A stretch of 64,000 nucleotides of DNA from a virus. Positions 3,040 through 38,200 of the stretch are shown here, one piece after another. The notes beneath the pieces are model-generated. The model was not told the DNA's origin. It saw only the letters and a list, made by a program, of their open reading frames with translations, and searched no databases. The translations under genes and the position numbers were made by a program. How positions within the stretch are numbered: the first letter of the stretch is position 1; every line of letters begins with the position of its first letter. The DNA is taken from positions 39,318-103,317 of IMG/VR virus record IMGVR_UViG_3300042314_000343; one strand, given 5' to 3'.

Positions 3040-4863
3040 ATGGCAACAGTCGTAAAAGACTTTAAGATTAAGAGCGGACTGGTTGTTGAGGGTACCACAG
3101 GAACCATCAACACCTACGACATTCTTACAAAGAAGCAAGCAGACCAGGATTACATCATTGGTCTTATCGGTGGCACAGCCACTTCAGAAAACACAGCAGA
3201 CACCGTTGTAAAGCGTGATGAGGATGGCAGCTTTGCTGCTGAAGTCATTACAGCAGAAGGCGGATTTGTTGGTAACCTAACAGGTGACGTAACAGGTGAT
3301 GTATCTGGTAATGCAGGTACCGCAACTGCACTAGAAACAGCTCGCACCATTGAGCTAACTGGTGACGTAACTGGCTCTGTATCATTTGATGGTACATCAA
3401 ACGTTCAGATCTCTGCAACCATTGATGGTGACTTTGCAACTGACTCAGAGGTAGCAACTGCTAAGCAGGAAGCTATTGATGCAGCTGCTCTAGATGCAAC
3501 TTCAAAGGCAGACGCCGCTGAAGAAGCCGCTAACGACTACACAGATGGTCGTGAAACAGCTATCACTACAGCTTACCAGTCTTACGCAGACCAGGCAGAG
3601 CTAGACGCTGTTGCAACTGCAGAGTCTTACACAGACGCTCGTGAGACTGCTATCACAACCGCTTACGAAGCATACGCTGACCAGGCAGAGGTAGACGCTA
3701 AGGCCTACACAGACGCTCGTGAAACAGCAATCACAACTGCCTACCAGTCTTACGCAGACCAGGCAGAAGTAGATGCTAAGGCATACGCAGACCAGAAGGT
3801 TGCAGACCTAGTAGATGGTGCACCAGCACTTCTAGACACTCTAAACGAGTTGGCAGCAGCACTTGAGGACAACCCAGATGTTATTGCTGACCTAAGAGAC
3901 ATTGCTGATGGAAAGCAGGACACCCTAACCGCAGGTGCAAACATTGACATTACAGGAGACACAATTTCTGTAACTGGTCTAGACACCAACGACGTTGCTG
4001 AAGGAACTAACCTTTACTTCACAGACGCTCGTGCAGTTACTGCAAACACTGGTCTATGGGACACCATTGGTGCCGCATCAGACGCACAGGAAGCAGCAGA
4101 GGACTTCGCTACCGCAGCAGACACAACCCTTTACGGAACTGTTACTGGCGACATCGCAACTGCAAAGTCGGAAGCTGGAACAATTGCTCAGGGCTATGCT
4201 AACACTGCAGAGCAGAACGCAAAGGACTACGCTGACGGAATCGTTGAAGAGCTTGACGGCATCGTTAACGACCTAACCACAGACGACATTGCAGAGGGTA
4301 CAAACCTTTACTTCACTGACGGCCGTGCCAAGACATCTGCAGCAGAGCTTCTAACTGGTGCAACCCTAACCAACATTACCATCACTGGTAACGGTTCTGG
4401 TCTAACAATTACCGCAGAAAACGGTGTAGCTGACTCTACCACTGACGACCTTGAAGAAGGAGAGGACAACCTTTACTTCCTAGACTCACGTGCAGTAACA
4501 GCTCTTGAAGCAGTAGTTCCAAACTTTACAGCTGTAGAGTTTAACTCTGTTGCAAAGCAGGTAGCTGCAGAGGCATCAGTCGCAACAGCAAGCACAAGCA
4601 ATGCACTAACATGGGCAAAGGCTGAGTACCGCTCTGCTGAGTTCCTAGTCAAGATCAAGCAGGGTAACCACACAGAGGTTTCCAAGCTAGTTCTAACAAT
4701 GGACGTATCTGACAACATTGCTATCACCGAATACGCAATGGTTGGAACTAACGGAGACCTAGGATCCTACTCTGCTACCGTATCTGGTGACAACGTAGCC
4801 CTAACCGTAACCACCCTAAACAATAACTCTGATGTTATGGTTGTAGGAACACTGCTTAAGTAA
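3040..4863 (+). CDS. Tail fibre with coiled-coil repeats
   Basis: 607 residues preceded by an AGGAG site. Near residues 80-130 is the repeat G-D-V-T-G-D-V-S-G-N-A-G-T-A-T-A-L, common in phage fibres. Residues about 167-250 contain tandem 26-residue repeats (Y-T-D-A-R-E-T-A-I-T-T-A-Y) expected to form a trimeric coiled coil. Three copies of the N-L-Y-F-T-D-x-R-A fibre module follow at about 325, 425 and 478. The C-terminal 100 residues form a beta-rich tip with similarity to the tip of the preceding 148-residue protein. It is probably a long, thin host-contacting fibre. Arg codons are mostly CGT and Leu mostly CTA, unlike the AGA-rich neighbouring minor genes, suggesting strong expression. Confidence 0.8.
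   Translation: MATVVKDFKIKSGLVVEGTTGTINTYDILTKKQADQDYIIGLIGGTATSENTADTVVKRDEDGSFAAEVITAEGGFVGNLTGDVTGDVSGNAGTATALETARTIELTGDVTGSVSFDGTSNVQISATIDGDFATDSEVATAKQEAIDAAALDATSKADAAEEAANDYTDGRETAITTAYQSYADQAELDAVATAESYTDARETAITTAYEAYADQAEVDAKAYTDARETAITTAYQSYADQAEVDAKAYADQKVADLVDGAPALLDTLNELAAALEDNPDVIADLRDIADGKQDTLTAGANIDITGDTISVTGLDTNDVAEGTNLYFTDARAVTANTGLWDTIGAASDAQEAAEDFATAADTTLYGTVTGDIATAKSEAGTIAQGYANTAEQNAKDYADGIVEELDGIVNDLTTDDIAEGTNLYFTDGRAKTSAAELLTGATLTNITITGNGSGLTITAENGVADSTTDDLEEGEDNLYFLDSRAVTALEAVVPNFTAVEFNSVAKQVAAEASVATASTSNALTWAKAEYRSAEFLVKIKQGNHTEVSKLVLTMDVSDNIAITEYAMVGTNGDLGSYSATVSGDNVALTVTTLNNNSDVMVVGTLLK
3538..3783 (+). repeat. Tandem repeat in tail-fibre gene
   Basis: Three in-frame units begin with Tyr-Thr-Asp at 3538, 3628 and 3706. 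The last two are exactly 78 bp (26 residues) and the first is 90 bp. They encode alanine-rich helical repeats with Tyr-Ala-Asp-Gln. A partial fourth unit starts at 3784. The repeats probably set shaft length and could expand or contract by recombination. Confidence 0.85.
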
Positions 4864-25002: not shown

Positions 25003-25647
25003 ATGGCATATTCAAGAGGTTCTAACGCCAACATTATTGTTGGTGCAGCCGCTCTCTTCACATACGAAGATGGCGAATTGACCGATGGCCTGTTGCCAGC
25101 ATACGTTGCTGGTGAGAGTTACCGTGAAACCCTATCCGATGAGGAAGGTTTCCGTAACGTAGGCTACACCATGAATGGTCTGGAACTAGCTTTCCAGCCT
25201 GACTTTGGTGAGGTAGCTGTTGACCAGTTGCTAGACGTTGCAAAGCTTTACAAGCAGGGCATGACTGTCAACCTAAACACTACTTTCGCAGAGGCAACAC
25301 TAGAAAACTTGTTGTTCGCACTAGCTGCTAAGCCAGAAGATCTATCTTCTGCTACAGGCACTGGTATCGGAGCAGGTTCTAGCTCTCTAAACCTATCTGC
25401 TGGTGACATCGGTGAATGTCCAGTAGAGCGTGGTCTTGTTGCAGTAGGTCCAGGTACAGGTGACTGTGCTCCAGACCTAGCTAAGGAGCGTGTATACGTT
25501 GCTTACCGTGCACTCTCAATTGAGAGCGTTACAGTAGGTGCAAAGCGTGACGAGGCAACAATGTTCGAAGTATCGTTCCGTCTGCTTCCAAACGACGCAG
25601 CTGCTTACGGTAAGATCGTTGACCGCACCATCCCTGCTGCTTCCTAG
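25003..25647 (+). CDS. Major tail tube protein
   Basis: 214 residues. The pattern N-A-N-I-I-V-G-A-A-A-L-F-T at the start, L-E-L-A-F-Q-P-D-F-G-E-V near 60 and E-A-T-M-F-E-V-S-F-R-L-L near 183 fits tube proteins that begin by naming a 'value' and end in a beta strand. It has the same highly expressed codon profile as the capsid protein (CGT, CTA), its own promoter and a strong terminator. Position between neck and chaperone genes agrees. It would polymerise into the tail tube around the tape measure. Confidence 0.82.
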   Translation: MAYSRGSNANIIVGAAALFTYEDGELTDGLLPAYVAGESYRETLSDEEGFRNVGYTMNGLELAFQPDFGEVAVDQLLDVAKLYKQGMTVNLNTTFAEATLENLLFALAAKPEDLSSATGTGIGAGSSSLNLSAGDIGECPVERGLVAVGPGTGDCAPDLAKERVYVAYRALSIESVTVGAKRDEATMFEVSFRLLPNDAAAYGKIVDRTIPAAS

Positions 25648-25668
25648 TAGCTGGTTATAACTAAATAG

Positions 25669-25708
25669 AACTGCCCTGGCATTAATTTGCTGGGGCAGTT
25701 TGCTTTTT
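25669..25708 (+). terminator. Intrinsic terminator after the tail-tube gene
   Basis: A 12-bp stem (AACTGCCCTGGC / GCTGGGGCAGTT with two G-T pairs), loop ATTAATTT, then TGCTTTTT. The T-tract runs directly into the next promoter. Confidence 0.88.
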
Positions 25709-25716
25709 GGTATACT
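25708..25716 (+). promoter_or_regulatory. Extended -10 promoter, leaderless start at 25723
   Basis: TGGTATACT, 6 bases before the ATG at 25723, no ribosome site. It overlaps the last T of the terminator tail. Confidence 0.68.
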
Positions 25717-25722
25717 ATAGGT

Positions 25723-26421
25723 ATGCCAACTACAGTTTATAACTCAGAAAACATCGTCCTAGTCGACGGCACAGAAATTTACATAACTCCACTAAAGATA
25801 AAGTATCTCAGACAATTCATGGAATCTTTTGAACTAGTAAAGGCTTTAGGCAACACAGACGAGGCCTTTGATCAGCTACTTGAGTGTGTCCGAATTGCAA
25901 TGAAGCAATACTTTCCAGCAATCAAGACCGTCCAGGATGTTGCAGATAATCTAGATATGGCAACAATGTATAAGCTAATAGATATCGCTGGCGGAATATC
26001 TAACAAGAAGCCAGACGAAGAGCAGAAGCAAGAAAAGACAGGAGATGGAGACTCATCTTCTAGCTGGAGAAACTTAGACTTAGCAAAGCTTGAGGCAGAG
26101 GTGTTTTTGCTGGGTATCTGGAAAGACTACGAAGAGCTAGAGTCATGTCTATCAATGCCAGAACTAACAGCAACTCTTGAGATTAAGAGAGAGATAGATT
26201 ATCAAGATAAGAAGTTTAATGCTGCAATGCAGGGGGTAGATCTTGACAAGCAGAGTGGAAAGAGTGAGCAAAACAAGTGGGAAGAAATGAAGGCACGAGT
26301 ATTCTCTGGAGGAAAGACTACAGATGGAAATGACATTCTTGCATTCCAGGGGGCCAATGCTGCTAAGGCAGGTTTTGGAATCGGCTTAGGCCTTGCCTAC
26401 GAGGATCTGTCTGAAAAATAA
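25723..26421 (+). CDS. Tail assembly chaperone, long (G-T type) form
   Basis: 232 residues from the ATG at 25723, chosen because of the promoter 6 bases upstream; an earlier in-frame start at 25687 lies in the terminator. Residues 1-95 are homologous to the short chaperone at 26476 (V-D-G-T-E-I-Y-I-T-P-L-K-I versus I-D-G-T-E-I-S-V-R-P-L-K-I). Residues about 117-232 form the extra domain (K-L-E-A-E-V-F-L-L-G-I-W, S-M-P-E-L-T-A-T-L-E) normally added by frameshifting. Arg codons are AGA/CGA and the start is leaderless, both suggesting lower expression than the short form. It binds the tape measure during tail assembly. Confidence 0.85.
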   Translation: MPTTVYNSENIVLVDGTEIYITPLKIKYLRQFMESFELVKALGNTDEAFDQLLECVRIAMKQYFPAIKTVQDVADNLDMATMYKLIDIAGGISNKKPDEEQKQEKTGDGDSSSSWRNLDLAKLEAEVFLLGIWKDYEELESCLSMPELTATLEIKREIDYQDKKFNAAMQGVDLDKQSGKSEQNKWEEMKARVFSGGKTTDGNDILAFQGANAAKAGFGIGLGLAYEDLSEK

Positions 26422-26430
26422 ACCGATCCG

Positions 26431-26439
26431 TGATATAAT
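26431..26439 (+). promoter_or_regulatory. Extended -10 promoter for the short chaperone
   Basis: TGATATAAT followed by about 36 bases with a GAGAGGA ribosome site before the ATG at 26476. It shares the 14-mer TGATATAATTAACT with the promoter at 21852. Confidence 0.68.
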
Positions 26440-26475
26440 TAACTAGCCAAAAAATGGTTATTTTGAGAGGAAAAT

Positions 26476-26793
26476 ATGACAACAACAGTTAACGAAGCAA
26501 AGAAGATCACCTTCATCGATGGTACAGAGATTTCCGTACGCCCATTGAAGATCTCGCTATTGCGTGAGTTTATGAAAAAGTTTGAAGAGCTTGGCCCAGT
26601 TGCCGAAGACAACGATAAGTCTATGGATGTTCTAATGGCTTGTGTTCAGATTGCCATGCGTCAGTATAACGCAGAGCTAGCTGCAGATGCAAAGGCACTA
26701 GAGGATTCTCTGGACCTGCCAACAGTCTACCAGATTGTTGAAGAGGCTTCGGGAATCAAGCTTGGAGATTCGGTTGCTGCTAGTCGCAAGTAA
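26476..26793 (+). CDS. Tail assembly chaperone, short (G type) form
   Basis: 105 residues, homologous along its whole length to the N-terminal domain of the long chaperone (shared positions include I-D-G-T-E-I, L-R-E-F-M and C-V-Q-I-A-M-R-Q-Y). It ends where the long form's second domain begins. I find no slippery heptamer near its end and no frame-shifted extension, so it is a separate gene rather than the pre-frameshift product. It has its own promoter, a ribosome site and CGT/CGC arginine codons, predicting a high ratio of short to long form. The tape measure gene follows 22 bp later. Confidence 0.85.
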   Translation: MTTTVNEAKKITFIDGTEISVRPLKISLLREFMKKFEELGPVAEDNDKSMDVLMACVQIAMRQYNAELAADAKALEDSLDLPTVYQIVEEASGIKLGDSVAASRK

Positions 26794-26815: not shown

Positions 26816-29800
26816 ATGGCTGATATTGAGTCAAATATAAGAATAGATATTGATACCACAGACGCTCTGTCTGCTATCAAGAATCTGCAAAGACAGATAT
26901 CAGCCTTTCACAGCACAATGCAGCAGTCTGGCAACGCTGCCAATGCAGCCATCTCTGATGGCATGCAAAGAAACTTAGTCAATTCGATTAATGCCACAAA
27001 GAAGTTCTCTGCATCTATGGTGGATGTAAAGGGCAGTACAGAATCTTTTACTACTGCTCTTGAAAAGAACAAGCTCTCCCTTGGACAATACTTTAGGTAT
27101 GCTGGGGCATCTACAAAAACCTTTGGAAGACTCTTTACAAATGAGTTTAACACTATTGAGAAGGTTGCTAGAGAAAGAGTAAAGACCCTACAGACCCAGT
27201 ATATCAAGATGGGTAGAGATGCCAACGGTGCAATCCAAGCAATCAAGGTTAGGCCACTCGCCCTTGACATGGAAAAGCTTGGTACTCAGGTACAGATAGC
27301 AGCCCAGAAGCAGCAGATATTTAATCAGCTTCTAAAGCAAGGTTCTACAAACCTTCTAAACTTTGGTAAGAATACTCAGTGGGCTGGTCGTCAGCTTATG
27401 GTTGGTTTTACTGTACCACTTAGCATGATGGGTGTAGCTGCCGTAAAGTCTTTCATGGAAATGGAAAAGGCAGTTCTAAAGTTCCAAAGAGTCTATGGAG
27501 ATCTTGGCACAACTGCTGGCGATACCGAGAAGATGATCAAGCAGATCGAAAAGCTAGCTAATAGCTTTACCAAGTATGGTGTTGCAGTAGCAGACACAAT
27601 GTCTTTGGCAGCCGATGCTGCAGCCATGGGTAAGACTGGTGCCGATTTGTCTGCACAGGTATCTGAAGCAACCAGGCTAGCAATTCTTGGTGGTGTAGAG
27701 CAAGCTCAAGCACTTGAGACCACTACATCACTTACAAACGCCTTCGGCGTTGCAACAGAAGATCTGGCAAATAAGATAAACTTCTTGAACTCCGTTGAAA
27801 ACCAGACGGTAACATCCATTGAAGACCTAACCATTGCTATTCCAAAAGCTGGTCCAGTTGTTCAGCAGCTAGGTGGAGACGTAGAAGATCTAGCATTCTT
27901 CCTAACAGCAATGAAGGAAGGTGGGATTAATGCCTCTGAGGGTGCTAACGCACTAAAGTCTGGTCTAGCATCTCTAATTAATCCAACTGGAAAAGCAAGC
28001 GAGTTTTTGCAAACTTTTGGCATAAACGTAAAGAACATTGTAGACTCAAACAAGGGTGACGTTAAGGGGCTAGTTCTAGACTTTGCATCAGCACTAGATA
28101 CCCTAGATCCACTAAACCGTGCTCGTGCCATTGAGCAGATGTTTGGTAAGTTCCAGTTCGCCCGTATGTCAACACTATTCCAAAACGTAATTGCCGAGGG
28201 TAGCCAGGCCTCACGTGTACTTGACATGACAAAGGCATCAGCCCAAGAGCTAGCAATTCTATCTGAACGAGAAATGAAGAAGGTAGAGAATTCTCCAATG
28301 TTTAAGTTCCAGAAGGCATTGGAAGATATCAAGGCATCTCTAATTCCTTTGGGAGAAGAATTCCTAAAGTTGATCACACCACTTGTTGAGTTTGGTGTAG
28401 ATATGCTTAAGCAGTTTAACAATCTTGATGCAGGGGTTAAGCAGTTTGTTATGGGTGCTGTTGGTGTCCTTGGCCTAATAGCACCAGCAGCAATTATGAC
28501 CTTTGGTCTTTTTGCCAACGGTATCGCAAACATCATCAAGGGCGTTAGCTCTGTTAGCAAAATGTTCTACAAGCTTGCAGGTGCTACATCAGATGCAGCT
28601 GGCCCAATGGGATACTTTACCCAAGAACAGCTAGAAGCTTCAGCAGTGGCTGCCTCGCTTGAGCAGGTACACTCAAACCTTACTCAGCAATTTACATCAG
28701 AGACTTTTGCAATCCTAGGGCTAAAGGATGCTTATCACCAAGCCATTATAGCTATTAACGAGTACAGTGCCGCATCTTCACTTGCAAGAGCAGCAGCAAC
28801 TCCAACCCCATCAGTAGCACCTCCAATCTCAAAGGTTCCTGGTTCACGTCGTGCACAGTCACCTGGAGGAAGTCTTCCAGGGTATGCTTCTGGAATTATC
28901 TCAGTACCAGGACCCAAGGGTGCTGGAGATGTTGTTCCATCTTTGCTCTCTCCTGGAGAAGCCGTCATCCCTGCCGATGTTGCTAAGAAAAACCGTGGCT
29001 TTATCGCAGCAATGATTGCTGGAAAAATTCCAGGCTTTAATGGTGGTAAAGTTGGGTTCGACGGCATGGGGGACACAGAGAAGTACAAGGCACAGGAGTA
29101 TATTGATTCAATCTCAGCAGCTTTACCAAATGGCGTAGAGATTGTTACAAAGGCTTTAGATCGGGCAAGAGAAGACCTAAAGCTTACCTCAGCTGGATTG
29201 CTAAGAGAGATGTCTGTTGTTGCAGAGCAATTTGGGGTTGGCTCATCAGAACTTCTTAAGGCAGCTGGATGGACAAATGATCAAATTGGAAAAAAGCGTG
29301 GCTCACAGCAAACAGAAAATATTCAAGAGCAGTGGGCAAGAGAAAGGGGGTCGGTAGGAGAGATAGAGGCAAGAAGGGCATCGGAGGCATCAGCTACTGG
29401 AAGAGATGCAATAAGAGATTTCCACATGTCGAACGGTATGACTGAAGAAGAGGCTTTGAAAAAGGCTAATGCTCAAACACACAATGCAGGTTCTGTAAGA
29501 TCCCACATCGTTGATGTTGGACCTAACGCAAAGTTTGCAGCAAACAAAGAGGCATTTTCTACAAGCGTTACCACTGCACAGTCTGATCTTGCAAATAACT
29601 TTTTAACCAACCTAATAGATAGACCAACTGGCAAGAAGAGGGGAAGCTTTGATGCCATGCAGGAAGCTATCCGTAGTCCAGAAGCAGGCATTGATCCTGC
29701 AATGCAGGACGCAATATTGGAAAAGATTGAGACCGATATAGCATTAACAGAGCAAGAGCTTATTGAGCAGGGTAAGGCCATAGACCTTATTCTTACAAAA

Positions 29801-32800
29801 AGAAGAGATCTTATTGCCCAGGGCGGAGCCGCCTTTGAGTCGCAACTTGTTGGAATGTCGGCAGAAGCAAAGTATTATGGATCTCAGGAAAGAATTGCAG
29901 GGGTTGGAGATAGAACTCCACAAGAGCTAGCAGCTGGAAAAGCCGCAATTAACAAGGTAATGTATCGTGGCAACCAGCAGTATGCAGAAACAGAAAACCT
30001 TCCACGAATTGGAGCAAAGCTAGCAGACCCAACCGATCCAAAAGACGTTGCCCTGATGAAGCAAAACGGCGTTGACCTAGTCAAGGGAATGGATCTTGGT
30101 ATTAGGGAAGAGGGAGAGCTAGCTTCACCTTCGAAGAAGATGTTCCGCAGCGGTGCTGACCTAGTTAGAGGCCTTGTCAATGGAGTCAAAGAAGGCTACG
30201 ATGAAGCCAACCAGGTTGGAGATCAGCTAGGAGATGCTATCATAAACGGGGCAAGACCAGACGGACTTCCACCAACTCTGCCATCAATTCCAGGTTTCCC
30301 AACCACACCAACTCCATCATTTACGCCACCAGCTAGTGATGCTGCATCGGTTGGAAAGAATATTGGAAAGAAACTCTTCAAGGGTATTGATGACAAGCTA
30401 TCTGACCTATTTACAACTGGTGCTCTTTCAAACACAGCTCTAGGGCAGGCATTTAAGAATAACGCAATCTCAAATGCACTTGAGTCTGGCGGATACAAGA
30501 ATGGCGTAATCCTTACAGACAGCAAGGGCAATGAGGCTGACAGAGCAAACGTCAATCCTGCTGTAGGAGCTGGCTCTGCTGCAATGATGGCAGCTAGCAT
30601 AAACAATGGGAACGACAACCAGTTAGCATTCGACGCTGATGGAAACCCTATTGTAGATAATAAGGGCAGACAGCTAACTCAGCAGCAGCAGGAGAAGAGT
30701 CTTAAGAAGCAGGCATCTGCACAGAAGCGTGGTCGTATGGCAGGAAAGGCCATGGGTGCCCTAGGAACCCTAACGATGGTTTCTGGAATGGCATCTGGCA
30801 TGGGCGGCCCAATTGGAGACATTGCTAGTGCGGCAACCCCATTCCTTGGTGCACTCTCTGCTATTGTGCCACTTCTAATGGCTTTGCCACTACCAATTGC
30901 AGCGGTAGTTGCTGGACTAGGACTAATTGCTTTTGGATTGTACAAGCTTAACGAAGGCCTAATGAAGGCAAGAGAAGAAGCCACTAAGATGGCAAAAACA
31001 TTCTCTTCTGGTAGAGAGGCAATGGATGGCCTAGCTGAATTTGCTGGAACTGTAAACCCTTCTGAGGCTATGGACAGGATCCGTGCTGAGCGTAGAGTTC
31101 CATACCAAATTGTAACTGGTAAGAACACGTTTGGTGCAGAATATCTAGAGTCTGAGGCTGGAAAGAATCTTATAGATCAAGCAAGGACTGCCAAGCAAAA
31201 TGATGGCGGAGCAGCAGCATCCAAAGCTTTGGCAATTCAGCTTTCTCAAGCTATTGCCTCAAACGTTCTTACAAAGAATCAGGCGGCTAGCATTGCAAGC
31301 AATGTTGGAGAAGCACTGGGAGATTACGACTTTGCTATAGACGTTAACGCAACAATGGTTGAGCTGATTGGTCCAGGAGGAGAAGACCTAACGAAGGATC
31401 CTCTAGAAATTCAGGCTAGAATTATTGAGGCAAAGCAGGAAACACTTACCCAAACTGGTGGAGCAAAAGAGCTAATCGATGCGACAAACAAAGACATGGG
31501 TATAGACGGAAGGCAGAATTATACAGAGGTTGCTGCAGCAGAAGCTCAGGTCTCTAAAGCAATTCAAGACATTGCAGACATGGGCCAACAGAACCTGGAC
31601 ACACTAGAGCTTGAGCATTTAAAGAGGCTAGAGGTTCTTGAGGCAGCTGGAGACCTAGCAGGAATAGAAAAAGAAAACAAAAAGTTTAACCAGGACAAGC
31701 TTGATGTACTTAACACTACATCGGCTGCTCTAAAAGAAGAGGCTGCATATCTAGATAAACTAGAGGGCCAGGGCGGAGCAAGACGCAAGTCTGCAGAACA
31801 AATTGTTGACAACATGGAGAACTCGTTTGAGGCACTATTTGCAAGTGCTGATGAGGCAACAAAAAAGATGGCGACCAGGGTAGTCGAAAACATCTCTGAC
31901 CAAGCCAACTTCTCCTTCTCTGCCAAAGCCGCAATTCTTGCAACAATGACTGTAGACAATGTAGACCTATTTGATAGAGTCCAGACACTATTCGATCCAG
32001 ATAATGCAAAGAATGATGTTGTGTGGAATGGTATTGCCAACATGTCACTTGAATTTGGCAAGGGCATGACAGAAGACATGCTCGCAATACTGCCAGGATT
32101 CTCTGACGTAAATAAGGCAGGAAACTTCATTGATTATGTACTTAGGCTAAAAACAGAGGGCGGCCCAGAATCATCAGATGCAGCATTGCAGACCATGACA
32201 GCTTTGAGCAAGCTAAAGACATTTGATAAGGACGGAAAAGAAAAGCCAATAAGTCTAGATCAGTATGTGGATAAGGATGGAAAGGTTACAGAAAAATTTA
32301 AAACTCTAACCAAAAACATTAAAGAGATGAACACTCTCTTCTCAAAAAACAAGGGTAAGAAGATTACCTATGAGATGATGTCCAAGGTGACTGGTCTAGA
32401 CCTTAGCAAAGAGGCACAGGCATACTTCAACAGCCTACCAGCAGACCAGCAGAAGATTTATACGGAGACATACCTGACAGTTCTAGACACCATAGATCTT
32501 AGCACTGACGAAGGAAAGGCTAGAGTTAAGAAGTACAGGGCAGATGCAAACCTTATTGGTGGAACTGTAGCAAACTATACAGCTGGGCTAACGGATTTGG
32601 AAGTTGCACAATCAATTGCAAGCGGAGACGCTTACCAAAAAACCGAAGAATCTAAGGGTATCACAACCGTAGAAGAAGAGGAAGAGGAAGAAGAAGATAG
32701 CGGCGGAACCAAGACCGATCCATACGAGAATCTACTTTCAAGACTAAAGAGAGTTAGAGATGCAGCCATAAATGCAGCTGGAGGAATCTCTGAGCTAAAC

Positions 32801-34594
32801 AAGGCATTGGCAAAGGGAAGCACTATTGCAAAGGGTCTGTTCCGTGGAGTAAGTCAACAGCTAACTATGGCAGGGTACAGTGCTGAGTTCATTGATGACA
32901 TGATGGCACTTGATGAAGAGCAACGCAAGAAGTTTATGACTGTTGATAAAAAGGGTAAGGTAACCGTTACAAAGGACGGTAAGGCTTATCAGGAGGGCTT
33001 GCGTGAAGCAGCCATTGGAGAGTACCAGGATTCCGTTGTTCGCTCCACCGCAGATCTTGGCTACCAGTCCGAAGCATTTGACAAGCTAGTAAAAAATGGT
33101 ATGTCTACTGCAGATGCAATGGAAGTGGCATCAGATGCAAATATGGCATATGCTATAGCTACAAACGCTTCTACGACAGAAATTAAAGACATGGTAAAGT
33201 GGCTAGAGAAGCAGGCTAAGGCACAAAGAGAGCTAGACTTCAAGACCGCAGCAGGCCGAGAGAAGATCGTATCTGGAGCAACCTCTAAGGTTAGCGAATA
33301 CTTTGCTGCTCAAGAAGCCAAGGTTAACAAAGACTTTGAGAGCGGAGCAAACACTAGCGGAAGAAACACTTCTGGATTTAACATTGGTAAAACTAGAAGC
33401 GAAATAGAAAAGGCTCAAGACGAGATTGCGGATTACCAGTATGAGATTGATGACATACAGTACCAGCTAGATGGAATTGCCAAGGCAGAAGACGAGATAA
33501 ACAAGAGGTACGAAGAGCGAGTTGAGGCACTAGAAAACATTTGGGAAGCAAACAGCGACATTATGGAGCAGCAGAAGGGCCAGCTCTCTATAGCTCAGGC
33601 ACTAACATCTGGTGACGTTGCAGCAGCAGCAAAGGCAATGCAGGAAGAGCAAGCCAGAGCTGCAGATAGAGCAAGAGAAGAGCAGAAGGCTGCTCTAGAA
33701 AAGTCAAAGGAGCTAGAGCTTGCTTCTGTAAGGTCTACTAATGGAAAGACCAGGGTAGAGCTAGAAAAGAGCTTGCTAACGCTTCAGGAAAAAATAGCGA
33801 AGATTGAAGAAGAAAGAGTAGAGCCAGCAGAAAAGATTGTTAAGGCTGCAGAGCGAGCTAAGGCACTAGCTATTGAAGCAGTCGGGGAAGCTGGCTATCT
33901 CGGTCAAACAAAGAAGGCTTGGGAGAATGTGGCAGATGCTGCAAGAAACGCTACCGTAGAGTCTGAGGAGTTTGCAAAGTCAATTCAGGAGGCACTAAAG
34001 GCTATTCCAGGATTCACAGAAGTGCTTGATGCAAACGGTAAGTTTATGTCATTTAAGTTTGATCCAAAGGCATACTCAGCCTGGCTAGGAACTCCAGCAG
34101 AAGGCTCTGGTTCAGGTGCAGCCAGCAATACCGTCGTTGATAAAGAAGCTTTGGCTGCAATTAATACAAAGATTGCAAATGCAGAGCGTTACAAGGCTAA
34201 TATGGAGAAGTTGGGCAGGTCGGCAGAGGCAGCAGGAGCCCAGGCAAAACTAACTGCATACTATGCTGAGCGAAAGAGAATTCAGGGTCTTTCAAAGGGT
34301 GGAATGGTTGTGCCAAAGTACTTTGCCTCTGGTGGATTTGCAATGGGAACAGATACTGTCCCAGCCATGCTCACACCAGGAGAATTTGTAATGAGCAACT
34401 ATGCGGTAAAGACCCACGGTATTGACAAGATGAGAGCAATCAATTCAGGAAGAACAGTTGGTGATTCAGTGTATAATAGTTATGAGTTGAATGTCAATGT
34501 TAAATCAGATGCAAACGCAGACGAAATCGCCAGAGCAGTAATGACCCAGATTAGACAAGTAAACTCTCAGCAAGTAAGAGGAAATAGGTTCTAA
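26816..34594 (+). CDS. Tail tape measure protein
   Basis: 2592 residues with a GGAG-containing ribosome site. The N-terminal 150 residues are helical (T-T-D-A-L-S-A-I-K-N-L-Q). A TP901-type core spans about 170-530. Hydrophobic, membrane-inserting stretches lie near 540-575 (V-L-G-L-I-A-P-A-A-I-M) and 1340-1385 (L-P-L-P-I-A-A-V-V-A-G-L-G-L-I-A). Two copies of the tape-measure motif P-S-L-L-S-P-G-E-A-V / P-A-M-L-T-P-G-E-F-V occur near 710 and 2525. Long coiled coil fills about 2195-2390. It sets tail length and is probably ejected at infection. At the usual 0.15 nm per residue the tail would be near 390 nm. Confidence 0.95.
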   Translation: MADIESNIRIDIDTTDALSAIKNLQRQISAFHSTMQQSGNAANAAISDGMQRNLVNSINATKKFSASMVDVKGSTESFTTALEKNKLSLGQYFRYAGASTKTFGRLFTNEFNTIEKVARERVKTLQTQYIKMGRDANGAIQAIKVRPLALDMEKLGTQVQIAAQKQQIFNQLLKQGSTNLLNFGKNTQWAGRQLMVGFTVPLSMMGVAAVKSFMEMEKAVLKFQRVYGDLGTTAGDTEKMIKQIEKLANSFTKYGVAVADTMSLAADAAAMGKTGADLSAQVSEATRLAILGGVEQAQALETTTSLTNAFGVATEDLANKINFLNSVENQTVTSIEDLTIAIPKAGPVVQQLGGDVEDLAFFLTAMKEGGINASEGANALKSGLASLINPTGKASEFLQTFGINVKNIVDSNKGDVKGLVLDFASALDTLDPLNRARAIEQMFGKFQFARMSTLFQNVIAEGSQASRVLDMTKASAQELAILSEREMKKVENSPMFKFQKALEDIKASLIPLGEEFLKLITPLVEFGVDMLKQFNNLDAGVKQFVMGAVGVLGLIAPAAIMTFGLFANGIANIIKGVSSVSKMFYKLAGATSDAAGPMGYFTQEQLEASAVAASLEQVHSNLTQQFTSETFAILGLKDAYHQAIIAINEYSAASSLARAAATPTPSVAPPISKVPGSRRAQSPGGSLPGYASGIISVPGPKGAGDVVPSLLSPGEAVIPADVAKKNRGFIAAMIAGKIPGFNGGKVGFDGMGDTEKYKAQEYIDSISAALPNGVEIVTKALDRAREDLKLTSAGLLREMSVVAEQFGVGSSELLKAAGWTNDQIGKKRGSQQTENIQEQWARERGSVGEIEARRASEASATGRDAIRDFHMSNGMTEEEALKKANAQTHNAGSVRSHIVDVGPNAKFAANKEAFSTSVTTAQSDLANNFLTNLIDRPTGKKRGSFDAMQEAIRSPEAGIDPAMQDAILEKIETDIALTEQELIEQGKAIDLILTKRRDLIAQGGAAFESQLVGMSAEAKYYGSQERIAGVGDRTPQELAAGKAAINKVMYRGNQQYAETENLPRIGAKLADPTDPKDVALMKQNGVDLVKGMDLGIREEGELASPSKKMFRSGADLVRGLVNGVKEGYDEANQVGDQLGDAIINGARPDGLPPTLPSIPGFPTTPTPSFTPPASDAASVGKNIGKKLFKGIDDKLSDLFTTGALSNTALGQAFKNNAISNALESGGYKNGVILTDSKGNEADRANVNPAVGAGSAAMMAASINNGNDNQLAFDADGNPIVDNKGRQLTQQQQEKSLKKQASAQKRGRMAGKAMGALGTLTMVSGMASGMGGPIGDIASAATPFLGALSAIVPLLMALPLPIAAVVAGLGLIAFGLYKLNEGLMKAREEATKMAKTFSSGREAMDGLAEFAGTVNPSEAMDRIRAERRVPYQIVTGKNTFGAEYLESEAGKNLIDQARTAKQNDGGAAASKALAIQLSQAIASNVLTKNQAASIASNVGEALGDYDFAIDVNATMVELIGPGGEDLTKDPLEIQARIIEAKQETLTQTGGAKELIDATNKDMGIDGRQNYTEVAAAEAQVSKAIQDIADMGQQNLDTLELEHLKRLEVLEAAGDLAGIEKENKKFNQDKLDVLNTTSAALKEEAAYLDKLEGQGGARRKSAEQIVDNMENSFEALFASADEATKKMATRVVENISDQANFSFSAKAAILATMTVDNVDLFDRVQTLFDPDNAKNDVVWNGIANMSLEFGKGMTEDMLAILPGFSDVNKAGNFIDYVLRLKTEGGPESSDAALQTMTALSKLKTFDKDGKEKPISLDQYVDKDGKVTEKFKTLTKNIKEMNTLFSKNKGKKITYEMMSKVTGLDLSKEAQAYFNSLPADQQKIYTETYLTVLDTIDLSTDEGKARVKKYRADANLIGGTVANYTAGLTDLEVAQSIASGDAYQKTEESKGITTVEEEEEEEEDSGGTKTDPYENLLSRLKRVRDAAINAAGGISELNKALAKGSTIAKGLFRGVSQQLTMAGYSAEFIDDMMALDEEQRKKFMTVDKKGKVTVTKDGKAYQEGLREAAIGEYQDSVVRSTADLGYQSEAFDKLVKNGMSTADAMEVASDANMAYAIATNASTTEIKDMVKWLEKQAKAQRELDFKTAAGREKIVSGATSKVSEYFAAQEAKVNKDFESGANTSGRNTSGFNIGKTRSEIEKAQDEIADYQYEIDDIQYQLDGIAKAEDEINKRYEERVEALENIWEANSDIMEQQKGQLSIAQALTSGDVAAAAKAMQEEQARAADRAREEQKAALEKSKELELASVRSTNGKTRVELEKSLLTLQEKIAKIEEERVEPAEKIVKAAERAKALAIEAVGEAGYLGQTKKAWENVADAARNATVESEEFAKSIQEALKAIPGFTEVLDANGKFMSFKFDPKAYSAWLGTPAEGSGSGAASNTVVDKEALAAINTKIANAERYKANMEKLGRSAEAAGAQAKLTAYYAERKRIQGLSKGGMVVPKYFASGGFAMGTDTVPAMLTPGEFVMSNYAVKTHGIDKMRAINSGRTVGDSVYNSYELNVNVKSDANADEIARAVMTQIRQVNSQQVRGNRF

Positions 34595-35199
34595 TGGCAG
34601 ACATAGAGTACATGAGTGGAAGAAAGAAGTATGCAAGGCCACAGGCTGTGCTTTTTTCAGAGAACCCTGGAACTATAACTGAGTCTGGCAAAAGACTTCC
34701 AGATGGCTATGAGGTTGGTGCTGCAGAAGGCTCAGACGGATCATTCCTGATTCTTTCTGACGACAACAGAGAGCCAGTCAGCATGAGCATTGAGCGTATT
34801 GAAACCCGTGAAAGAATGATTAATGGAAGAATGCGTTCATATCACATTGCAGATAAGCTACAGTTGTCGCTGTCCTGGTCTATGATTCCATCAAGAGCAT
34901 TCTCCTCAAGCCCATCCTTTCAGGATAATGGCACAAGCTCAGCAACCTCTAAGTATACTTCAGATGGCGGTGCTGGCGGTGCAGACTTGCTAAAGTGGTA
35001 TGAAGACCACCCAGGATCATTTTGGGTTTTTCTTTCATACGATAAGCCAGATAATTTTTCCACAAATAAGTATGGCAGGCTTGCAGAGTATAGCCAGGTA
35101 ATTGAGATGTTTGTATCAGACTTCTCCTACTCCATTCAAAAGCGTGGAGCAACTAATCATGACTTCTGGGATGTGTCCATAACACTGGAAGAGGCTTAA
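34594..35199 (+). CDS. Distal tail protein, putative
   Basis: 201 residues, start overlapping the tape-measure stop (TAATG). The N-terminal region P-V-S-M-S-I-E-R-I-E-T-R-E-R-M and later S-Q-V-I-E-M-F-V-S-D-F with W-D-V-S-I-T-L-E-E-A at the end suggest a beta-barrel tail-tip adaptor. Directly following the tape measure, it occupies the place of the distal tail (Dit-like) gene that caps the tube. No sequence signature decides this. Confidence 0.5.
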   Translation: MADIEYMSGRKKYARPQAVLFSENPGTITESGKRLPDGYEVGAAEGSDGSFLILSDDNREPVSMSIERIETRERMINGRMRSYHIADKLQLSLSWSMIPSRAFSSSPSFQDNGTSSATSKYTSDGGAGGADLLKWYEDHPGSFWVFLSYDKPDNFSTNKYGRLAEYSQVIEMFVSDFSYSIQKRGATNHDFWDVSITLEEA

Positions 35200-35200
35200 A

Positions 35201-38200
35201 ATGTTTTTTAATCAAGAACTTCAAGACCACCTAGAACAAAGCTCGTCAGTTAGCTTAAAGTCTTTTATCTCTGCAGAGTGGAACATGAACGTCCCATCCA
35301 ACATAGCTACTGTTGGCAACTATCGAAACAGGCCACTAGACCTTGATTCCCCATACAACCAAGCGACATCGGTATATGATCCACTAGACAGCACCCTAAG
35401 TATTAAGCACTATACTGGTGCCACAGATGCTGACATAGCAATTGCAGGAGGGTACCAGGAGAAGCTTGATCAAGAGTTAAACCAAATCCCAGTAGTGTTT
35501 TCGTCATTAAAACAAAAAGAGAAAATGCTTTATTCTCTAGACGACTGCTTCTTAAAGTTTAGACCAAGATCTGGAATCAACAAGGCAAGATTTTTAAATG
35601 GAGTCTTTCTCCACAATACAAACTCGCAAATGGCAAGTAGGCCAAGGTACTATATGTCTAGCAAGAAGGACAACTTTAAGTATTGGTCCTCTTACAGAAC
35701 AGAGTCTTCTGGAACGAAAAACATTGAAAGAGGAATTGCCAATAAGCTAATTGGATCATCATACGTTATTGACGATGCAGCTCCATTTGTGGTTTACGAA
35801 AAGCCAGTGCCTGCCAACAGAATTGTAATTAAGATGCAGACTGGTGTAGGTACAGTAAACCTAGGACCATTTCAGACAGAGTCTGGAACTATAAATGACC
35901 CACTGTTTGGGTACGCAAACCAGAAGACACCAGTAAGGTGGAAGGTGCAATACCTAAAGAACAACTCTTGGTATGACGCCATATCTTTTGACAATAATTC
36001 AAAAAGACTAGATGGCTCTAACATTGTTGGACCAGACGGCTATGTAGAAATTGCCTACGGACCAATTATTCCAGAGAAGTATGCAAAAGCCTTCAGGTAT
36101 CTTGGAGAGATCTACGATGAAAGCATAATCCCAGAAGACTCGCTATTGGGCGATGCCTATCTAGTGAAAGAAACAGTGTCTTCTGCTGGAAGATTTGTAG
36201 TTAAAACTCAAGCTGGAAGAGAGTCATTCTCCGCAAAGTATGGCTGGTACTTGATCGATGAAGGTGTAGCTATGTCTACTCCATATGTTAAAAAGCTATC
36301 TTCACCAGACTCTTTTAAGAATGCTTCTGGAGAACAAAAGCTAAGAGAGCTAGAATTCATTTCTGGTATCAGGGTAGTTGTCGACACAATGAATGTTCAG
36401 AACTCCACCTTCGACCTGATTGAAATATCGCCAAGACTGCTCGCAGACATATCGGATATGGTCACAAACTTCAGTATTACCAAGGCAGCATCTGACCTTG
36501 GCGTAAGCGGAATGCCAGTCGGACAGCTACTAGCATCAACAGGAACACTAAGCCTTTTTGACGTAGACCAGGTATTTAATAATAATAATGAGGATAGCGT
36601 AATCTCAAACTACCAGTATGAAAATATAAAGTTCTCATTTTATGAGGTAATCAAAAATGTTAACTCTGACTCGTTCTTGGCAGACTACTACATTCCAATT
36701 AAGACGCTATACTCTGAGTCTAGACCAACCTTTTCTAGCAAAGATAGGTCAGCAGAAATAGAGCTTAGAGATCTATTCTTTCACCTAGAGTCGACAAAGG
36801 CTCCAGAGCTGTTGCTTCAGGACGCATCGACAAGCTACGCAGTAAGCCTCCTACTAGACTCTATTGGCTTTTCAAACTACACGTTCCTAACTTTGCCAGA
36901 TGAGTCGGAAGACATAATTCCTTACTTCTTTGTTGCCCCAGATAAGACCGTAGCTGAGGTTCTTCAGGATATTGCTGTCTCAACTCAAACAGCCATGTTC
37001 TTTGATGAGTACAACAACTTTGTTGTTATGAGCCGTGGATACCTAATGCCATCTGAAGAAGATAGACAGACCAATGCAGAGCTTCTGGGAACTATAGATC
37101 AGTCTAAGGACGGCACCCTAAGAAACAAGTCAACCTCAGCAAAGCTAGCAAACATTGCCGACATATCAGCGTCAGAAACAAAGGTATACAACTCTGGCAA
37201 AATAGCATACACCTCTAGATATATTCAAAGAGAGGTTGCATCGCTAAAGAACTCTTTGATGGTAGACAGGGATAAGTCTTGGATATACAAGCCAGCACTA
37301 CTGTGGGAAGTATCTCCAAGTGGCAACATTAAGTCTATCAACGATCAGACGGCGGATCAGCAACAGTACTTGTTGGCTGCTGTGCCACTAAACACTGACC
37401 TACCTGCCTCACCACCATCCGTATTGAATGGACAAATCATTAATAATATTATTGACTTTGGAGAGTCCGTACAGTGGATTGGAAGATACAATGGATACTT
37501 TTACGCCAACGGCGAGGTAATCAGGTATGACGCAGTTGAGTATAGCGTACCAGGACAAGAGTCTGGAAATGTTTGGATAACAAACATAAAGGAGTACCAG
37601 GGGTATTTCTCCAAGCTTCCATTTAACGGAAAGATGTATCAGACTGGAAGAGTTAGAATATTCTGTGTGCCAAACTATACAAACCTATCTAACGGGACAA
37701 CAATCCTATCTGAGGGACAGGTTGCACAGCACGGAAGAGGACAGTTTGGGACCCCAATAAACTATCACTCAGCAGGCGTGAATGCTTACTGGCAAGACAA
37801 CAAGAATGTTCGTGGAGTCAACATGGACCACACTAAGCTGTTCTACCAGTCAGACAACGTTTTTGCAACAGGGGCAATGTCAGCACCTCTAGAGACAAAC
37901 GGAAACTACACGATTATAGTTTCTGACTCAGAACTAATAAAGCCAGGATACAAGGTAGAAATCACTTCTGGTGTTGGAGCTTTTGAGCCAGGACCACTCC
38001 CATCGGTCGTAGAGGTCGTTGATGATACCCACGTCAGAATAGACAGAAAGATTGTTACTGCACTTAACAACGCTAGCATAATCTTTTATACAAAGCAGGC
38101 AGAACCATTTTATGGAAAAGCTGGGACATCGTTCTCATCTGGAACCAGTAATTCTTTTGCTCAAAAAACTGGAAGAAATTCAATTATAAAAAACTTTAAC

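Follow-up and report, generated by a model that had tools for sequence, protein, structure and literature searches.

Separate genes for the long and short tail assembly chaperones in a phage clade with frameshift-type relatives

Organization of the chaperone locus

The analyzed stretch of viral DNA (64 kb, part of a 103-kb IMG/VR virus record; hereafter, the window) contains two tail assembly chaperone genes located between the genes of the major tail protein and the tape measure protein, a position that is common to its relatives. The features of the locus are as follows:

25003..25647, + strand: major tail (tube) protein gene (phrog_2175 'protein with Ig domain', E 1.3e-31)
25668..25710, + strand: putative intrinsic terminator separating the long chaperone gene from that of the major tail protein (14-pair stem at 25668-25701, then a T tract)
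25708..25716, + strand: putative extended -10 promoter TG-G-TATACT of the long gene, recognized from the sequence; the ATG lies 6 nt further (leaderless start)
25723..26421, + strand: long tail assembly chaperone, 232 aa, in a single continuous frame (phrog_10504, N half; phrog_10474, C half)
26431..26439, + strand: putative extended -10 promoter TG-A-TATAAT (TGATATAAT) of the short gene, recognized from the sequence and its recurrence in the clade
26465..26470, + strand: Shine-Dalgarno sequence GAGAGG of the short gene, recognized from the sequence
26476..26793, + strand: short tail assembly chaperone, G only, 105 aa (phrog_10504, E 1e-18; homology to the N domain of the long protein)
26816..34594, + strand: tape measure protein gene, 2592 aa (phrog_10030, E 4.2e-94), 22 nt past the short gene

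The syntenic homologue of the protein encoded at 25003..25647 is annotated as the major tail protein in the phages Faust and BillNye. The boundaries of the chaperone pair given in the initial annotation (25723-26793) were correct. The long gene starts with the ATG at position 25723; the start in the ORF list, an in-frame TTG at position 25687, is located within the terminator.

As had been claimed, the long form is encoded by a continuous open frame (25723-26421) and is followed by a separate short gene homologous to its N-terminal domain; BLASTP comparison of the two proteins gave 40% identity over 94 aa (E 7e-23). The long protein consists of a G domain (approximately aa 1-92), a linker and a T domain (approximately aa 115-232). 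The halves of the long protein match phrog_10504 and phrog_10474, so two phage families are fused in it. The long and short forms have the N domain in common, and the T domain is present only on the long form. There is no room for a second T after the short gene, because the tape measure gene begins 22 nt further on. A T remnant 3' of the short gene was also ruled out in the relatives, where the short and tape measure genes are separated by 15-40 nt.

The Pfam search of both proteins revealed no family and only chance matches, and no match of the chaperones to T4 families was found in Pfam or PHROGs. In the AlphaFold models, both G domains show a beta hairpin with helices after it. The model of the short form (pLDDT 77) was similar to the viral protein A0A6J5QVP5, named 'Tail assembly chaperone' (E 2.5e-7, TM 0.78), and the PDB fold search with the short and long models gave nothing significant. 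No tRNAs were found within the 64-kb window.

Two-gene and frameshift loci among the relatives

Homologous loci were gathered by scanning IMG/VR and were sorted by the reading frame of G and T. The scans yielded 264 two-gene loci, in which a continuous long gene (GT) is followed by a short gene (G), and 151 loci of the G/T frameshift type; nearly all of the loci outside both classes were truncated at contig ends. After identical protein pairs were dropped, 145 two-gene and 69 frameshift loci remained distinct. The two-gene layout is a clade-wide trait and not a one-off. In the first sample of two-gene loci, the gap between the long and short genes was 28-88 nt and their relative frame was random; therefore, the short gene is not an out-of-frame remnant. 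The broken long genes of two loci, L353 and L398, are probably assembly errors (a short tandem duplication and an indel) and were left out of the counts; in L353, it is the segment LESEVFLIGIW (4368-4430) that is tandemly duplicated and breaks the gene.

The tblastn search against phage records matched 130 records, 127 of which were Streptomyces phages. In the Streptomyces phage records, the halves of the long protein correspond to two neighbouring ORFs, for which the annotation is often tail assembly chaperone.

The survey for a frameshift ancestor revealed relatives that carry G, T in the -1 frame and a canonical heptamer. The T frame was -1 in all 151 frameshift loci, and a heptamer of the X XXY YYZ form was found in 62 of the 63 distinct G/T overlaps (GGGAAAC/T in 30 and CCCAAAT/C/A in 32), in most cases about 40 nt 5' of the G stop codon. 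In one locus (L150), the G-to-T junction is seamless when read through GGGAAAC. In the Streptomyces phages Faust and BillNye, T is also in the -1 frame and the corresponding site reads CCCAAAT. Thus, the long form is attributed to programmed frameshifting in the sister loci and not in the two-gene clade, where its frame is continuous.

In Samisti12 (L159; Samisti12 32405-37928, locus positions 2700-2900), there is a -1 overlap without a canonical heptamer; the homologous place reads CCC GGA A, so the frameshift signal of this phage is either unusual or located elsewhere. A related frameshift locus with CCCAAAC was found in the distant 110-kb phage contig CAINGU010000031.1 (L243), which belongs to a MAG bin labelled uncultured cyanobacterium.

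The initial annotation had noted no slippery site, and this observation was extended to the clade: a canonical heptamer is absent from the domain junction and linker of the long gene in the window, and no conserved heptamer position was found in 68 representative long genes. It can be supposed that the long gene keeps a hidden programmed frameshift giving the short product, which would make the separate short gene superfluous, and some A/T heptamer does occur in the linker region of 14 of these 68 genes. However, in-frame X XXY YYZ heptamers were less frequent in the long genes than expected by codon permutation (1.13 vs 1.42 per gene), and they vary in sequence and position; the linker in the window has none, whereas the frameshift G genes carry the heptamer at a fixed place in 25 of 25 cases. 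This explanation is considered extremely improbable. Among the short genes, a heptamer was located near the end in only 3 of 68, and those inspected open into no T frame, which indicates that the short genes have lost the slippery site.

Start signals, codon use and selection

Start signals were surveyed in 67 representative two-gene loci with shuffled controls. The leaderless start proposed for the long gene of the window (TG-G-TATACT at 25708-25716, 6 nt, then the ATG, with no Shine-Dalgarno sequence) recurs in the clade far more often than in the controls. The extended -10 is located exactly 6 nt before the ATG in 58/67 loci and about 5-9 nt before it elsewhere; a -10 at 3-9 nt was found in 96% of loci vs 1% of shuffles, and a Shine-Dalgarno sequence upstream of the long gene was found in 0/67 loci. 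With the -10 at 6 nt, the A of the ATG is expected from promoter geometry to be the first transcribed base. Judging by the sequence, the leaderless start of the long gene appears to be real. Ahead of the long gene, 97% of the 60 representatives have a terminator-like element (shuffles, 2%); before the short gene, a terminator was found in 2% of representatives.

The short gene had been credited with its own promoter and ribosome site, and both recur throughout the clade, again far more often than in the shuffled controls. Its own TGNTATAAT was found in 67/67 loci (with TATACT in one of them) 15-50 nt before the ATG, mostly at about 25-38 nt, and a Shine-Dalgarno match of at least 4 nt was also present in 67/67. 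In the window, these signals are TGATATAAT at 26431-26439, preceded by a weak -35-like CTGAAA at 26411-26416, and GAGAGG at 26465-26470. This start layout (promoter and Shine-Dalgarno sequence) is that of the frameshift G genes.

Leaderless-like starts with an extended -10-like element at 5-7 nt were also found at positions 1050, 1584, 2221, 17212, 19285, 41614 and 51802 on the plus strand of the window, and none on its minus strand. Because seven other plus-strand ORFs show it, the phage seems to use the leaderless start generally. Leaderless mRNAs can be well translated in actinobacteria, so a leaderless start alone is no proof of low output.

The difference in arginine codons noted initially (AGA in the long gene, CGT in the short gene) holds in the window: 3 AGR codons and no CGY codon were counted in the long gene, against 4 CGY codons and no AGR codon in the short one. 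It also appears as a trend across the clade, the AGR share of the arginine codons being 87% for the long genes, 38% for the short genes and 12% for the genes of the major tail protein. Using a codon score defined as the log-ratio of major-tail-protein to tape-measure usage, the short gene scored higher than the long N domain in 68/68 loci (Wilcoxon p 8e-13). In the frameshift loci, the score of G was better than that of T in 24/25. Codon use fits a higher output of the short form, although it does not prove it.

The median dN/dS values were 0.035 for the short gene, 0.082 for the long N domain and 0.055 for the long T domain; these low values indicate that both genes are kept. The two G domains of one locus are just 42% identical (range 32-50%), and the long N domain is the faster-evolving one, with a median identity between loci of 52% vs 70% for the short protein. 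These distances could mean that the short form, or the long N domain, took another role and that the pair no longer acts as G and G-T. Against this, both G domains keep the core DGT..I..PLKI..LR.FM under strong purifying selection, their place between the tail tube and tape measure genes is retained, and the short form preserves the ancestral promoter layout and codon level. A change of role is therefore rated as unlikely.

Origin of the pair and comparison with known systems

Phylogenetic analysis was performed for 154 G domains. The long N domains formed one clade (60/60; support 100/100), as did the short proteins (60/60; 95/79). In the best tree, these clades are sisters (67/82) located inside a paraphyletic group of frameshift G, and the stem of the long clade is approximately tenfold longer than that of the short clade (0.95 vs 0.09). 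In the AU test, a tree uniting the short proteins with the frameshift G and excluding the long N domains was not rejected (p-AU 0.42). The short proteins were closer than the long N domains to the frameshift G in 1673 of 1675 comparisons (62% vs 44%). The claim that the frameshift was replaced by gene duplication is well supported by these results: frameshift relatives exist, and the best tree nests the two-gene clades among them. A single duplication nested in the frameshift lineage is thus supported by the best tree, though not firmly, the joining node being moderately supported. Since an earlier, smaller G tree had placed the long N domain outside the rest, the duplication could predate the split from the frameshift phages.

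The reverse direction was also considered, in which the two-gene state would be ancestral and the frameshift loci would have lost the long gene and regained the slippery site. The T-domain tree, in which the T of the long genes groups with the frameshift T apart from the Streptomyces phages (100), is compatible with this direction inasmuch as the frameshift T falls among the long T, and so is the first G tree, with its basal long N domain. However, the outgroups (Streptomyces phages, L243 and others) are also of the -1 frameshift type, a matching CCCAAAT/C site is present in Faust, BillNye and L243, the frameshift G is paraphyletic around the two-gene clade, and a matching heptamer would hardly be regained in place. 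An ancestral two-gene state is accordingly regarded as very unlikely.

The two-gene phages make up a derived clade of the tape measure tree. Next to these phages, or between them, lies one locus of the frameshift type, L211, a position suggestive of a degree of recombination. Phage genes do recombine, and neither this tree nor that of the major tail protein agrees completely with the two-gene trait. The loci L211 and L244-L255 represent a frameshift-type lineage (with CCCAAAC in L211); the place of the L211 tape measure protein suggests either that recombination affected the chaperone locus or that the lineage is a frameshift-type sister standing very close to the two-gene phages.

The most probable scenario, which we hold with considerable confidence, is that an ancestral frameshift locus gave rise, through one duplication of G, to separate long-only and short-only genes. 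It builds on features that are apparent at the sequence level, namely the two-gene layout, the frameshift relatives, the separate long and short clades, purifying selection and the distinct start signals. The ancestral phage would have produced G and G-T from one locus via -1 programmed frameshifting. The G gene would then have been duplicated once in the lineage leading to the phage of the window, and one copy would have been fused in frame to T; owing to this fusion, it would make the long form only. The other copy, being free, would have lost T and the slippery site and would yield the short form only. The short form may coat the tape measure protein, while the rarer long form may recruit the tail tube protein, like gpG and gpGT of lambda.

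The short form is presumably made in excess over the long one, owing to a leadered promoter of its own, a strong Shine-Dalgarno sequence and favourable codons, and since its gene can also be read from the upstream transcript; the long form would be scarcer because of its single leaderless start and poor codons. The types of promoter and leader and the codon bias point indirectly to a transfer of the ratio to transcription and translation signals. Whether a large clade of environmental tailed phages shifted this ratio wholesale from recoding to promoter and leader architecture, by one ancient duplication after which the G domains became specialised, is evenly balanced in our estimation. If true, the shift of the ratio together with the specialisation of G would be a natural experiment on the purpose of the frameshift.

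The chaperones G and G-T of the lambda type are produced by -1 programmed frameshifting (Levin 1993; Xu 2004, 2013; reviewed in PMC5009743), and T4 is named as an exception (PMC5009743). The pair in the window resembles that of lambda in having a short G and a long G-T with a common N domain, in its position between the tube and tape measure genes and in the presumed excess of the short form; however, no frameshift is involved here, the long gene is continuous and the short form is a paralogue with its own promoter and ribosome site. Some T4-like phages are reported to have one short and one fused longer chaperone gene (Vladimirov, Gautam and Davidson 2022, Virology 566:9-15, as cited in PMC10885494). 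Going by that citation, a separate short gene plus a fused long gene without a frameshift occurs in both groups and the principle was already known. The T4-like phages so cited are myophages, whereas the lineage of the window is related to Streptomyces siphophages and its relatives still have the frameshift. Because a related siphophage lineage still frameshifts, the replacement looks independent of that in the T4-like phages, and its ancestor is visible. The arrangement had initially been called an unusual evolutionary solution; it is neither a single case (145 distinct pairs) nor, by the citation in PMC10885494, unique in principle, and we regard it as a new, apparently independent variant of the T4-like solution. 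No description of the lineage of the window, or of a transition from frameshift to duplication with surviving ancestors, was found in the open-licence literature.

The phages of Stanwilliamsviridae (Samisti12, Faust, BillNye) share the gene order, and their G and T domains are homologous; the kinship is known from the tail module. However, they have one G gene and no second copy of it, T being in the -1 frame.

Few recoding events in tailed phages are as conserved as the chaperone frameshift, whose presumed purpose is to fix the ratio of the products. Here, the frameshift was lost in one lineage while frameshift relatives survive, and the signals of the replacement can be read in more than 100 distinct loci. 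Thus, it becomes possible to compare directly whether the ratio alone or the frameshift itself matters.

An evident frameshift is also reported to be absent in the Microbacterium phages of Cluster EA, whose chaperone ORFs are reportedly expressed separately (PMC7302621). In lacking the frameshift they are like the phage of the window, but only two separately expressed ORFs are described for them there, with no fused long gene and duplicated short gene. For annotation, the absence of a slippery site does not imply the absence of a G/G-T pair.
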